Below, in pieces: positions 1-16,438 of a stretch of 64,000 nucleotides of DNA. The notes beneath the pieces are model-generated. The model searched no databases. It saw only the letters and a program-made list of their open reading frames with translations, and was not told the DNA's origin. Each line of letters begins with the position of its first letter. The first letter of the stretch is position 1. A program made the translations under genes and the position numbers. The DNA is from Acidimicrobiales bacterium (GTDB lineage: Bacteria; Actinomycetota; Acidimicrobiia; Acidimicrobiales; Bog-793). The stretch covers positions 1 through 64,000 of the forward strand of contig DATLTN010000065.1 of NCBI GenBank assembly GCA_035533595.1, read 5' to 3'.

Positions 1-68
1 TCGGTGTCGATGAACGACCGCAGGAAGCGGTCCCCCCGGGAGGTGCGAACGCTCCGCTCAGTTGCCAT
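1..68 (-). CDS. partial CDS, 5' end only, unidentified
   Basis: A reading frame starts at an ATG (complement of 66-68) and runs off the left edge after 22 codons (MATERSVRTSRGDRF...). An AAAGGAG Shine-Dalgarno-like sequence lies about ten bases upstream. A plausible promoter (TTGCAC, 18-bp spacer, TACGGT) precedes it, and the divergent citrate-synthase-like gene shares the intergenic palindrome. Too little protein is visible to assign a family. The case rests on the start context and the divergent layout. Confidence 0.4.
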   Translation of the reverse strand, partial: MATERSVRTSRGDRFLRSFIDT

Positions 69-101: not shown

Positions 102-131
102 ACCGTAACGCCGGGAACCGCCTTCGTGCAA
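102..131 (-). promoter_or_regulatory. putative promoter for the leftward partial gene
   Basis: On the minus strand TTGCAC (131-126) and TACGGT (107-102) are separated by 18 bp, a reasonable sigma-70-type pair. It lies about 35 bp upstream of the leftward ATG and abuts the palindrome at 131-152. Confidence 0.35.
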
Positions 132-152
132 GGTTGATCGATACGTCAACCT
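131..152. promoter_or_regulatory. palindromic operator candidate between divergent genes
   Basis: Two perfect 7-bp arms, AGGTTGA and TCAACCT, flank an 8-bp spacer. The site touches the -35 element of the leftward promoter and covers the expected -35 region of the rightward gene, whose -10 is at 174-179. The rightward product has an N-terminal helix-turn-helix, so autoregulation is the natural inference. Confidence 0.5.
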
Positions 153-173
153 GTCGTGAAGGTCGCAGCAACC

Positions 174-179
174 TATGCT
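174..179 (+). promoter_or_regulatory. -10 element for a leaderless transcript (TATGCT)
   Basis: TATGCT lies six bases upstream of the ATG at 186. This spacing and the TANNNT form recur before at least eight other starts in the window and match what is known of leaderless actinobacterial promoters. It is the main reason for choosing the 186 start, since no ribosome binding site is visible. Confidence 0.45.
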
Positions 180-185
180 GGCCCG

Positions 186-1373
186 ATGGGCGAGATGGTA
201 GACAGCGCGGAAGCCGCCCGTCGCCTTGGGATCAAGCTCGCCACGCTCTACTCTTACGTGAGCCGGGGCATCCTCCAGTCTCACCCCGCGCCCGAGGCCC
301 GACGGCGCCTCTTCGACCTCGACGAGGTCGAGCGGATCGCCCGTCGGGGCAAGAGCGGCCGCCAGGCCGACGACCACTCGATCCGTATCACGACGGCGAT
401 CACCCAGCTATTGCCGACCGGCCCCCGTTACCGCGGCATCCCCGCGGTTGAGCTCGCCACCACGGCTTCCTTCGAGGAGGTCGCCGCCTTGCTCTGGGAG
501 TCCGACGCGCCCGCCGGGTGGGTCCCCCTGGAGCTCCCTCCCGCTCCGGAGATGACGATGCGCAACCGGCTCAAGTGGTCGATCATGATGAGCGGCGCCC
601 GCGCCAGCCTCGCCTCGGACCTCCGCCGGCCCTCGATCGTCGAGATGGCGACCGCGCTGCTGGCGACGATCGTCGACTGCCTGCCGCCCGCCGCGCCCCC
701 CGGACGCGCATCCGAGCTGCGCCTCGACGGGGGGAGGACGGTCCGCGGCTCGCTCGCCGAGCGCCTCGCCGACCGCCTCGCCGAGGGCGGCGCCCGCCCA
801 GAGGTGGTGCGCGCCGTGAACGCCGCCCTCGTGGTGCTGGCCGATCACGAGCTGACGCCACCCGCCCTCGCGGTGCGCATCGCCGCCTCGGCGCGCGCCA
901 CCTACTTCGACGCGATGCTCGTCGGGGTGAGCGCCTCCTCGGCGCGGGCGCAGGGCTCGGCGAGCGAGCTCGCGCACGCGCTGCTGCAGGACGCCGAGTC
1001 CCAGGGCGCCGAGCAGGCGATGGACGATGCCCTCCGCCACCAGGGGGTCCTCCCGGGCTTCGGGCGCCGCGAGTACCCCGACGGGGACCCGCGCTTCTCG
1101 GCCCTCCAGCAGGAGGTCGAGCGCGTCGGGACACCGGAACGGTTCGCCGTGGTGCGGGCGGTGCTCGAGCTGGCCGACCTGCATCAGCTCCCCCGGCCGA
1201 GCGTCGACTTCGGCCTCGCGGCGATCATGTTCGCCGCGGACATGCCGCGCGCCGCGGGCCTCGTGATCACGACGATCGCCCGTCTCGCGGGGTGGACGGC
1301 GCATTTCCTCGAGGAGCTCGACGAGGAGCCCCTCAGGTTCCGACCGCAACCGGTCTACGTCGGCGCCACCTGA
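186..1373 (+). CDS. HTH-citrate synthase-like protein, probable metabolite-sensing regulator
   Basis: 395 residues. The first ~55 form an excisionase/MerR-type helix-turn-helix (SAEAARRLGIKLATLYSYVSRG); the rest follows the citrate synthase fold, including YRGIPAVELA, ADHE (near residue 219) and VDFGLAAI. Two of the three catalytic histidine regions are altered. The usual LHGGA loop reads ARAQGSA (about 252-258), and the usual GFGHxVY reads GFGRREY (about 291). ADHE and the aspartate-containing VDF are kept. I infer a non-catalytic domain used as a ligand sensor on a DNA-binding protein; a divergent active enzyme cannot be excluded. A palindrome sits just upstream, and the gene converges on the next one with a 19-bp overlap. 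A GTG at 156 is an alternative start. Confidence 0.75.
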   Translation: MGEMVDSAEAARRLGIKLATLYSYVSRGILQSHPAPEARRRLFDLDEVERIARRGKSGRQADDHSIRITTAITQLLPTGPRYRGIPAVELATTASFEEVAALLWESDAPAGWVPLELPPAPEMTMRNRLKWSIMMSGARASLASDLRRPSIVEMATALLATIVDCLPPAAPPGRASELRLDGGRTVRGSLAERLADRLAEGGARPEVVRAVNAALVVLADHELTPPALAVRIAASARATYFDAMLVGVSASSARAQGSASELAHALLQDAESQGAEQAMDDALRHQGVLPGFGRREYPDGDPRFSALQQEVERVGTPERFAVVRAVLELADLHQLPRPSVDFGLAAIMFAADMPRAAGLVITTIARLAGWTAHFLEELDEEPLRFRPQPVYVGAT

Positions 1374-2429: not shown

Positions 2430-4007
2430 TCAACGACCGGTCACTGCGCGGAGCAGCCCCTCGGGTGCCTCCGGTGGCGCGTCGCCGCGCCAGGCGACGA
2501 AGTGGTCAGGGCGCACCAGCACGAGGCGCGCGCCGTAGCGGAGGCGGTCGTCGGCGTAGCTGTCCTCGACGACGACGAGCGGCACGCCGGTCGCCGCGGC
2601 CGCGCTCGCGATCACGGCGGCCGCTTCGGATGCGTCGAACGCGAGGAGTGCGAAGCCGTCGCCGAGCTCGGCGAAGAGGTCCTTCCCCGAGGAGAGCTGG
2701 CAGGGCGCGAGGTGATGGCCGGCACGCGCCGTGAACTGGTGCTCACCGCGGATGCCGGTCACCCCGCCCCCGCCGACGACGATCGACGAGGCGTCGTAGT
2801 GCGGCTCGTACCACGAGGGCGCCATCTCCCCGCCGGTGCGGGCGCCCCAGGCGAGGGCGAACTCCTCGGGGTCGCGCTCCGGCGAGTAGCGGGCGAGGAA
2901 GGCGGCGTCGTCGTCGACCCAGGCGGCGATGACCTGCTCGCCGGTCTGCTCGAAGATTGGTTGGCGCTCGGCGGAGTAGGAGTCGAGGAGGCGATCACCG
3001 CCGAAACCCCCGAGCGCCGCCCAGAGCTTCCAACCGAGGTTGCGGACGTCCTCCAGGCCGGTGTTGAGGCCGAGGCCGCCGTAGGGAGGATGGCTGTGGC
3101 AGGCATCCCCCGCGATGAAGACCCGCCCGCGCCGATACTCGGTCGCGACGTCGATCCGCAGCTCCCAGAAGCCGATGTGCTCGAACTCGCAGGCGAAGTC
3201 CACGCCGGCGGCGGCGTGCATGAGCTCGAGGATCGTCCCGGTGTCCTCCGCGGTCGTCTCGCGCGGCACCGGCCCGTGGAAGAACCAGGTCTCCCCGAGG
3301 CGCACCCGGCCGAAGAAGAGCCAGACGCCGGCGTGCGCGGGGTCGAGCACCCGGTAGGTCGTGCGCTCGGGGAAGCGCGCCAGCCACTCGTGCAGCTCTG
3401 GCGAGCTGAAGACGGCGAGGACCATCTTCTGGTCCAAGTCGCGGCTGCGGCGGCTGACCCCCGACTGCTCGCGCACGAGCGAGCGCGCCCCGTCACAGCC
3501 GACCACATAGTCCGCAGCGAGCACCTCCTCCCGATCGGGAACCTCGTCGGTCACGAAGCGCACCCGCGTGCCCTCCGCGTCCTGCTCGACGGCGGTCACC
3601 GTGACGCCGAAGCGCAGGGTCGCGGAACGGAGCTGGCCGAGACGTACCCGCAGCACCTCCTCGGTCCGGTACTGCGGAAGGCGCTCGTTCGCCTCCGAGA
3701 AGTAGGCGCCGGCGCCGGCGAGGCCCTCGGGGAGGTACCAGTGCTCACCGGCGAGGTTGCGGTAGCCGGTGATCCCCCCGATCGGGTACCCCGGAGGCAG
3801 CAGCCGCGCGCTGCGCAACTCGTCGACGCAGCCCCAGGCCGCGAAGTGCTCGAGGCTGCGGTGCATCAAGTTCTGGCCCTTCGGGATGCGGCCGACCTCG
3901 CGGTGGCGCTCGAGGACGAGGACCTCGACGCCGCGCTGGGCGAGGTCGACGGCGAGCGCGACGCCGACGGGCCCTCCCCCGACGATGATGACCTGGTAGC
4001 GCTCCAC
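2430..4007 (-). CDS. FAD-dependent aromatic-type monooxygenase
   Basis: 525 residues, a class A flavoprotein hydroxylase of the PheA/TfdB/MhpA type, likely an NAD(P)H-dependent ring hydroxylase acting in the cytoplasm. Visible motifs are GGGPVG with a following dinucleotide fold at the N-terminus, the DG motif (VGCDGARSLVR), and the GD motif (VFIAGDACHSHPPYGGLGLNTG). The last ~130 residues fit the thioredoxin-like tail of this family. The GTG start follows a strong GGGAGGAGAGAGGG; the open frame continues upstream but without family similarity. It stands alone among regulatory genes, so the substrate cannot be inferred from neighbours, though aromatic-acid type genes occur 23-34 kb away. Confidence 0.85.
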   Translation of the reverse strand: MERYQVIIVGGGPVGVALAVDLAQRGVEVLVLERHREVGRIPKGQNLMHRSLEHFAAWGCVDELRSARLLPPGYPIGGITGYRNLAGEHWYLPEGLAGAGAYFSEANERLPQYRTEEVLRVRLGQLRSATLRFGVTVTAVEQDAEGTRVRFVTDEVPDREEVLAADYVVGCDGARSLVREQSGVSRRSRDLDQKMVLAVFSSPELHEWLARFPERTTYRVLDPAHAGVWLFFGRVRLGETWFFHGPVPRETTAEDTGTILELMHAAAGVDFACEFEHIGFWELRIDVATEYRRGRVFIAGDACHSHPPYGGLGLNTGLEDVRNLGWKLWAALGGFGGDRLLDSYSAERQPIFEQTGEQVIAAWVDDDAAFLARYSPERDPEEFALAWGARTGGEMAPSWYEPHYDASSIVVGGGGVTGIRGEHQFTARAGHHLAPCQLSSGKDLFAELGDGFALLAFDASEAAAVIASAAAATGVPLVVVEDSYADDRLRYGARLVLVRPDHFVAWRGDAPPEAPEGLLRAVTGR

Positions 4008-4253
4008 GGCAACCCTCTCTCTCCTCCCACAGCTTGGAGGAGGTCGACCTTGTACCGCAAAGAGCGGCGGGCGTGGCCGCGGACGGCGCCTGCGAAGGTC
4101 ATGCTTTGGCGAACGAATGCCATCAGTGACCGGGGCTGAGCTGCGGTGACGCAGCACCCTGTTGCAAAACCGCCCTCCACGACGCACGCACCGTCCGGTA
4201 GTGTCGGCCGCGGCTGGGAGCGCCCGAACTCGGCCGCGGGCGGGAGGAGCTCG

Positions 4254-15583: not shown

Positions 15584-16438
15584 CTACAGGCCGATCGCCT
15601 CGGCGAGCAGCTCGATCTGCTCCGGCTCGTACTCCGCCGGCGAGAGGCAGAGCACGTCGCAGCCGGCCGCGGCGAACGCCGCCATCTGCTCACGGATCTC
15701 CTCGCCGCTCGTCATCACGGGCCGCAGCGTCTGGGTCACTGACGAGGTGGCGTGCGCGGCGTTGTAGGCGCGGACGGCCTCGTCTGCCGCGGCCTCGGCC
15801 TTCGCGCCGAGTGCGTAGCGGGGCCCGTTCGCCAACAGCCGCGGGCGGCGGTCGCGCGACTCGGCCTCCCAGAGCTTTGCGAGCTCCTCCTTGGCCACGG
15901 TGAAGCCCTCGACGCCGCCCGAAGTCGGGCAGATCCACCCCGCGCCCCAGCGCGCGACTCGCTGCAGCACCGCGGGCGCGCGGCCCCCGAAGAGGATCGG
16001 CGGGCCGCCCGGCGTGTACGGGGCGGGGCCGACTTCGGGGAGCATCCCCCGCCAGATCGAGGTGATCCGCTCGAGCTGCGCGTCCATCAGCGCACCGCGG
16101 CGATGGAAGTCGACCCCCGACTCGGCATAGTCCTCGGCCCTCGACCCGACACCGAGGCCGAGCGTGAGCCGCCCCTCGGAGAAGTGGTCGAGCGTCGCCA
16201 CCTCACGGGCGAAGGCGAGGTGGTTGGCCCGCAGCGGAGAGAGGATCACCGAGGTGATGAGCTCGATCCGCTCGGTGCAGGCGGCCACCGCGGCGAAGGA
16301 GACCAGAGTCTCGAGGTCGGTCGTGATCATGCGGTCGCCCGAGGTGAGGATCTTGAAACCGGCACCCTCGGCGCGCCGCGCCCAGGTGATGACGCCCTTG
16401 GCGGGGAGGCTTGTGGGCAGGCTGACCGAGATCTCCAT
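15584..16438 (-). CDS. LLM-class (F420-type) oxidoreductase
   Basis: 284 residues, luciferase-like monooxygenase TIM barrel. Typical segments are MEISVSLPTS, LITSVILSPLRANHLAFAREVATLDHFSEGRLTLGLGVGSR and PPILFGGRAPAVLQRVARWGAGW. Actinobacterial members with LGVG and this spacing usually use cofactor F420 rather than FMN, but no specificity residue can be proven. GGAGGGAG precedes the ATG. The gene ends next to the left boundary of the 16.6-21.2 kb island. Confidence 0.85.
   Translation of the reverse strand: MEISVSLPTSLPAKGVITWARRAEGAGFKILTSGDRMITTDLETLVSFAAVAACTERIELITSVILSPLRANHLAFAREVATLDHFSEGRLTLGLGVGSRAEDYAESGVDFHRRGALMDAQLERITSIWRGMLPEVGPAPYTPGGPPILFGGRAPAVLQRVARWGAGWICPTSGGVEGFTVAKEELAKLWEAESRDRRPRLLANGPRYALGAKAEAAADEAVRAYNAAHATSSVTQTLRPVMTSGEEIREQMAAFAAAGCDVLCLSPAEYEPEQIELLAEAIGL

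Follow-up and report, generated by a model that had tools for sequence, protein, structure and literature searches.

A citrate synthase-type protein without catalytic histidines as a probable transcription factor divergent from a dioxygenase gene

The 64,000-nucleotide stretch of Acidimicrobiales DNA analyzed here (the window) opens with a gene that joins a DNA-binding domain to a citrate synthase fold, which raises the question of whether its product is an enzyme or a regulator that senses a metabolite. Citrate synthase catalyzes entry into the TCA cycle, and in trigger enzymes and other enzyme-derived regulators, an enzyme domain acts as a metabolite sensor coupled to DNA binding; the window protein is like this class in having an enzyme domain joined to a DNA-binding domain. 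The reading that we favor, and hold to be probable though far from certain, is that the protein is a local transcription factor made from citrate synthase, that is, an enzyme-derived sensor that moved from a citrate synthase locus to aromatic catabolism.

Domains of the window protein and its family

The gene and its DNA-binding domain lie as follows.
186..1373, + strand: HTH-citrate synthase (HTH-CS) fusion protein, 395 aa, probable transcription factor (open reading frame; HTH_17 and Citrate_synt)
201..350, + strand: HTH_17/MerR-like DNA-binding domain, residues 6-55 (Pfam HTH_17)

The start codon is the ATG at 186, and M1, E3, and M4 are shared with the nearest homolog. Pfam recognizes HTH_17 (E 1e-6), followed by a full Citrate_synt domain (PF00285, E 8e-44), both over cut-off, which bears out an earlier note, made from the letters of this DNA, of an excisionase/MerR-type HTH joined to a citrate-synthase-like domain. 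The MerR and MerR_1 models scored 19.2 and 19.4 bits, below their curated cut-offs of 28.2 and 21.6, respectively, and the NCBIfam citrate synthase models all match far under their cut-offs. The protein thus resembles the MerR family in its HTH_17/MerR-like winged HTH and its HTH-wing layout, but it has no MerR coiled coil and its effector domain is a citrate synthase. The nearest solved structures are the citrate synthases 3hwk (Mycobacterium tuberculosis; E 5e-21) and 1aj8 (Pyrococcus furiosus), and an AlphaFold2 model built from two sequences was discarded at a pLDDT of 37.

The protein aligns over its full length with 98 homologs, giving a set of 99 HTH-CS proteins. Counting the window protein, 95 of these belong to the family and order of the window, and the other four are encoded on named plasmids of Embleya, Ensifer, Burkholderia, and Comamonas. 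The recognition region of the HTH, T-Y-Y-SRG, is near-invariant across the set, and the signature is intact in the window protein. The HTH-CS family is widespread and functionally uncharacterized, being annotated only as "citrate synthase" or "citrate synthase family protein". Among 396 genomes of the phylum, no close relative of the window protein was found outside the window genome at E values up to 1e-80, and the viral contigs searched held no relatives either. The window lineage has two members, namely the window protein and its homolog in the genome G032 (57% identical).

A divergent dioxygenase gene and a candidate operator

On the opposite strand, the contig begins within a second gene.
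3..68, - strand: Rieske ring-hydroxylating dioxygenase alpha-subunit gene, represented by its first 22 codons and ended by the contig edge at base 1 (peptide identity)

This gene starts at an ATG (68-66) after an AAGGAG Shine-Dalgarno sequence, and its peptide (68-3), MATERSVRTSRGDRFLRSFIDT, is 84% and 74% identical over 19 residues to the N-termini of a 469-aa protein in G032 and a 467-aa protein in the genome G015, respectively. The G032 protein has a Rieske domain, and the gene after it encodes a ring-hydroxylating beta subunit. Further, contig C68 of the window genome starts inside a gene of this kind, whose 45 C-terminal residues are 80% identical to residues 425-469 of the G032 protein. 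Next come three genes recognized by eye from the sequence, for a beta-subunit-like protein, a conserved small protein, and a ferredoxin-like protein. The sole other Rieske alpha-subunit copy in this genome is a complete paralog on contig C4, beside a LysR-like gene. No other contig overlaps the edge of the window contig, and the simplest reading is that the pieces on C65 (the window) and C68 are one Rieske gene split by an assembly gap of ~1.2 kb, with the operon presumably continuing across it. An HpaB-type monooxygenase was also considered for the divergent gene and rejected, as PF11794 gave no support there and the peptide search led to the Rieske alpha subunit.

The HTH-CS gene of G032 is divergent from VOC and Amidohydro_2 genes, and contig C60 of the window genome carries, at ~15,867-16,049 (L034 3868-4050), what remains of a second HTH-CS gene, a frameshifted C-terminal piece (~60 residues, 58% identical) flanked by MFS transporter and Amidohydro_2 genes. 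Together with the Rieske neighbor, these settings suggest that the window lineage serves aromatic or related acid catabolism; since the divergent gene encodes a ring-hydroxylating dioxygenase, the likely signal shifts away from the TCA cycle.

The Rieske and HTH-CS starts are separated by a shared divergent intergenic region of 117 bp, with three features of interest.
128..137, + strand: GCAAGGTTGA, diverged copy of the family unit TCAAYRTTGA, with 2 mismatches (motif scan)
131..152, no strand assigned: palindrome AGGTTGA-TCGATACG-TCAACCT (7-8-7), putative operator (inverted-repeat scan)
173..178, + strand: TATGCT, putative -10 element from which the HTH-CS gene would be transcribed without a leader; CAACCTAT[A/G]CTG..CCGATG is also found in G032

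The palindrome that the earlier note had taken as the likely operator is present. As stand-alone evidence, however, it was rejected: when the intergenic region was shuffled by dinucleotides, 6% of the shuffles carried an equally perfect 7-bp inverted repeat, and the window holds 321 such repeats. The right arm, TCAACCT, is not kept in G032, the only close relative. The weight of the palindrome comes solely from its left half, which the GCAAGGTTGA unit overlaps and which matches an operator seen family-wide. Side-by-side reading of the upstream regions of HTH-CS homologs showed a common TCAACGTTGA element, often in two copies. Exact TCAANNTTGA occurs in 23 of 37 upstream regions, against 0.08 expected from dinucleotide shuffles. 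With up to one mismatch, TCAAYRTTGA lies within 150 bp upstream of 95/99 homologs, whereas mononucleotide shuffles gave a mean of 0.96. Neighboring units are most often 15 bp apart (52 cases in the 99 regions). These counts are not independent, as many of the 99 loci are related. The unit is found in Actinomycetota, including Embleya, as well as in Ensifer and Comamonas, whose HTH-CS neighbors differ, and simple inheritance of unconstrained DNA is unlikely because protein identities fall to 31-35%. The plainest reading is that HTH-CS proteins would bind the TCAAYRTTGA element and regulate both themselves and the divergent gene. This family-wide motif argues for the transcription factor proposed in the earlier note more strongly than that note could. 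In one upstream region (L066, genome G247), ~5 tandem CAA[C/T]ATTGAT units follow one another with a 15-bp period, forming an expanded operator array.

In the window, the spacing of the putative operator is 18 bp, compared with the 15 bp of the family. The first seven bases of the unit, GCAAGGT, are the same in G032 and lie at an identical distance from the ATG; from the start of the unit to the end of the ATG, a span of 61 bp, 36/61 positions are identical. The family's double operator was not found elsewhere in the window genome with up to 2 mismatches.

The putative operator lies ~20 bp upstream of TATGCT. If this -10-like hexamer is used, the plus-strand transcript would be leaderless, given its position at 173-178, and autorepression is favored, because protein bound at the operator would contact the -35 region of the HTH-CS promoter. 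A sigma-70 consensus scan called no promoter, including TATGCT; of the divergent promoters claimed previously, the divergence of the genes stands, while a sigma-70 consensus match is lacking.

The protein might regulate itself alone, leaving the dioxygenase operon outside its control. The palindrome has no second exact copy in the genome, the putative operator sits ~34 bp from the HTH-CS start compared with ~60 bp from the Rieske start, and the Rieske genes of G015 and G032 do not adjoin any HTH-CS gene (in G032, the two are on different contigs), all of which would fit such a role. A shared divergent intergenic region of this size is nevertheless the standard layout of local control, and HTH-CS genes are usually divergent from their presumed target, so we regard self-regulation alone as unlikely.

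Catalytic histidines, ligand residues, and neighbors across the family

To place the active-site residues, the window protein was aligned to P. furiosus citrate synthase, in which Arg271 and Arg356 bind carboxylate, as is established for the fold. In that enzyme, His223, His262, and Asp312 are catalytic, and His188 and Arg337 contact citrate (PMC1876251). The corresponding positions in the window are listed below.
846..848, + strand: His221, kept citrate/oxaloacetate ligand (P. furiosus His188); 99/99 homologs (alignment; PMC1876251)
951..953, + strand: Gln256, replacing the catalytic His of LHGG (P. furiosus His223) (alignment)
1065..1067, + strand: Arg294, replacing the catalytic His of GFGH (P. 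furiosus His262); Arg likewise in the nearest relative (alignment)
1092..1094, + strand: Arg303, kept carboxylate ligand (P. furiosus Arg271); 99/99 (alignment)
1206..1208, + strand: Asp341, kept catalytic Asp (P. furiosus Asp312); 99/99 (alignment)
1281..1283, + strand: Arg366, kept carboxylate ligand (P. furiosus Arg337); Arg in 94/99, Lys in 5/99 (alignment; PMC1876251)
1341..1343, + strand: Arg386, kept carboxylate ligand (P. furiosus Arg356); 99/99 (alignment)

Both catalytic histidines are therefore absent, as the earlier note had seen, whereas the catalytic Asp and four carboxylate ligands are present; the residues for chemistry have been lost and the grip on a carboxylate retained. The protein is thus like citrate synthase and 2-methylcitrate synthase (PF00285; 3hwk, 1aj8) in its fold, as judged by sequence, in its Asp, and in its carboxylate ligands, and it differs from them in the replacement of both histidines and in its extra N-terminal HTH. 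Classified from its sequence, it is an HTH-CS family member by its domains and not a citrate synthase by its catalytic residues.

The histidine losses are not general among the homologs: the LHGG His is kept in 92/99 proteins and the GFGH His in 90/99, while His221, Arg303, Asp341, and Arg386 are invariant. Because most homologs keep both histidines, the word "dead" fits the window lineage and one other clade only. The window and G032 proteins both have GFGR, with Gln (window) or Ile (G032) at the LHGG position, and the second group comprises seven other genomes with GFGM, five of which also lack the LHGG His. On the tree, loss of the catalytic histidines requires two changes, i.e., two independent losses. 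The window and G032 group together with support of 100/100 and are sister, at 100/98, to six genomes with intact histidines (37-row tree).

In these six sister genomes, the divergent neighbor of the HTH-CS gene is a CBS-domain citrate synthase (CBS read from sequence, not by HMM). A divergent (CBS-)citrate synthase is the usual neighbor of Actinomycetota members, and it is absent beside the window gene. Proteobacterial members likewise have no citrate synthase neighbor, and such a neighbor is not a strict mark of the family. On the Burkholderia cepacia and Comamonas plasmids (L187 and L188), the HTH-CS gene adjoins VOC, MFS, or SDR genes or is divergent from genes for a 2-hydroxyacid dehydrogenase, a fumarylacetoacetate hydrolase, and a tricarboxylate transporter. 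The divergent citrate synthases themselves (L037, L038, L039, L078-L083, and others) often carry an N-terminal CBS-like pair. Those that were aligned read NVEF rather than the NVD or NLD of ordinary citrate synthases, with Glu replacing the catalytic Asp. In the GFGM clade (loci L189-L195 in G360, G102, G345, G218, G194, G261, and G279), the divergent citrate synthase gene looks intact in all seven.

Citrate synthase is an obligate dimer in which one Arg comes from the partner subunit, and the domain could accordingly sense no small molecule, serving instead as a dimerization scaffold or forming mixed dimers that report on an ordinary citrate synthase. The window genome has just two further citrate synthase genes, both ordinary and with no third, which could supply such a partner, and the independent clade lacking histidines always adjoins an intact-looking citrate synthase gene. 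A domain serving purely as a scaffold could, however, do without the ligand residues, and these are invariant; the usual partner gene, moreover, has been lost from the window genome. Both points make a role without ligand quite unlikely.

Slightly further down the scale, and improbable in our estimate, is a bifunctional or active enzyme in which Gln256 and Arg294 would support Claisen-type or lyase chemistry that is slow or altered and uses a different 2-oxo acid, with the HTH localizing the protein or autoregulating its gene. The kept Asp341 and four carboxylate ligands would suit such an activity, and most family members, whose catalytic residues are complete, may act as trigger enzymes. In the window lineage, however, both substrate-activating residues are replaced, and one of the two sites differs between the window and G032 (Gln, Ile), as expected if the chemistry is not under selection.

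Between the window and G032 HTH-CS genes, codon positions 1, 2, and 3 are 69%, 75%, and 30% identical, respectively. With dN at 0.35 and dS at saturation, the pattern is one of strong purifying selection and shows that the gene is being kept. That it is a decaying relic of an HTH-CS/citrate synthase pair heading for loss, as the missing partner and the frameshifted remnant on C60 could imply, is highly improbable against full-length reading frames in two genera at 57% identity, this selection pattern, and an intact HTH signature. With the carboxylate-anchoring residues all kept and the gene under selection, the earlier proposal of a sensor with a dead enzyme domain is supported for the window protein.

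Proposed mechanism and related systems

From the computed domains, histidine losses, kept ligands, selection, family operator, and neighborhoods, we infer DNA binding, the ligand class, the direction of control, and the target operon for a citrate synthase-derived transcription factor. The N-terminal HTH_17 would bind one or two TCAACGTTGA-type units between the divergent genes, and the citrate synthase domain would dimerize and bind (i) a carboxylate or (ii) a carboxylate together with a CoA thioester; ligand binding would then drive domain closure and alter DNA binding. Most family members, which keep the catalytic residues and lie beside a citrate synthase gene, probably control that gene and themselves. 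The window lineage has lost both catalytic histidines, the citrate synthase neighbor, and the ancestral operator spacing, and it now stands divergent from a presumed ring-hydroxylating dioxygenase operon. The window protein itself is most likely a ligand-relieved repressor, or else an activator, and its signal may be an intermediate of aromatic catabolism, either an acid or an acyl-CoA. The ligands proposed in the earlier note, a CoA thioester or a 2-oxo acid, stand as candidates.

The closest parallel by layout is a Streptomyces coelicolor gene pair in which SCO5832 (citA4) presumably carries the HTH and lies beside SCO5831 (citA3). This is a citrate-synthase-type pair with a shared, regulated intergenic region, whereas the window protein lacks both catalytic histidines and its divergent neighbor is a dioxygenase rather than a citrate synthase. 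SCO5831 and SCO5832 are described as two putative citrate synthases, with MtrA reported at the intergenic site TTGACTTAACTGTCCA (PMC12323332). In the literature searched, which covered few subscription journals, we found no citrate-synthase-derived regulator and no HTH-CS protein treated as a regulator.

More tentatively, with the chances in our view a little short of even, HTH-CS proteins may be an uncharacterized and widespread class of transcription factors with the citrate synthase fold as sensor, which became a pure pseudoenzyme sensor in at least two lineages; in the window lineage, its control may have passed from citrate synthase to aromatic ring hydroxylation, the operator and the DNA-binding wing (Ser41 to Arg) changing to match. 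If true, a transcription factor made from citrate synthase would read a central metabolic crossroads directly, and many genes annotated "citrate synthase" may be regulators. With the shared motif (TCAACGTTGA units at a 15-bp spacing), all family members can be tested together, as both the protein and its expected DNA are named, and the independent loss of catalytic histidines in two lineages offers a natural experiment in the passage from enzyme to sensor.

Two further minus-strand genes follow in the window. One (1355-2323) encodes a fusion of a MEDS sensory domain with an anti-sigma-type HATPase and is convergent with the HTH-CS gene, whose 3' end it overlaps; the other (2433-4013) encodes an FAD-dependent aromatic-ring hydroxylase (FAD_binding_3 and Rng_hyd_C), possibly of the same catabolic theme.
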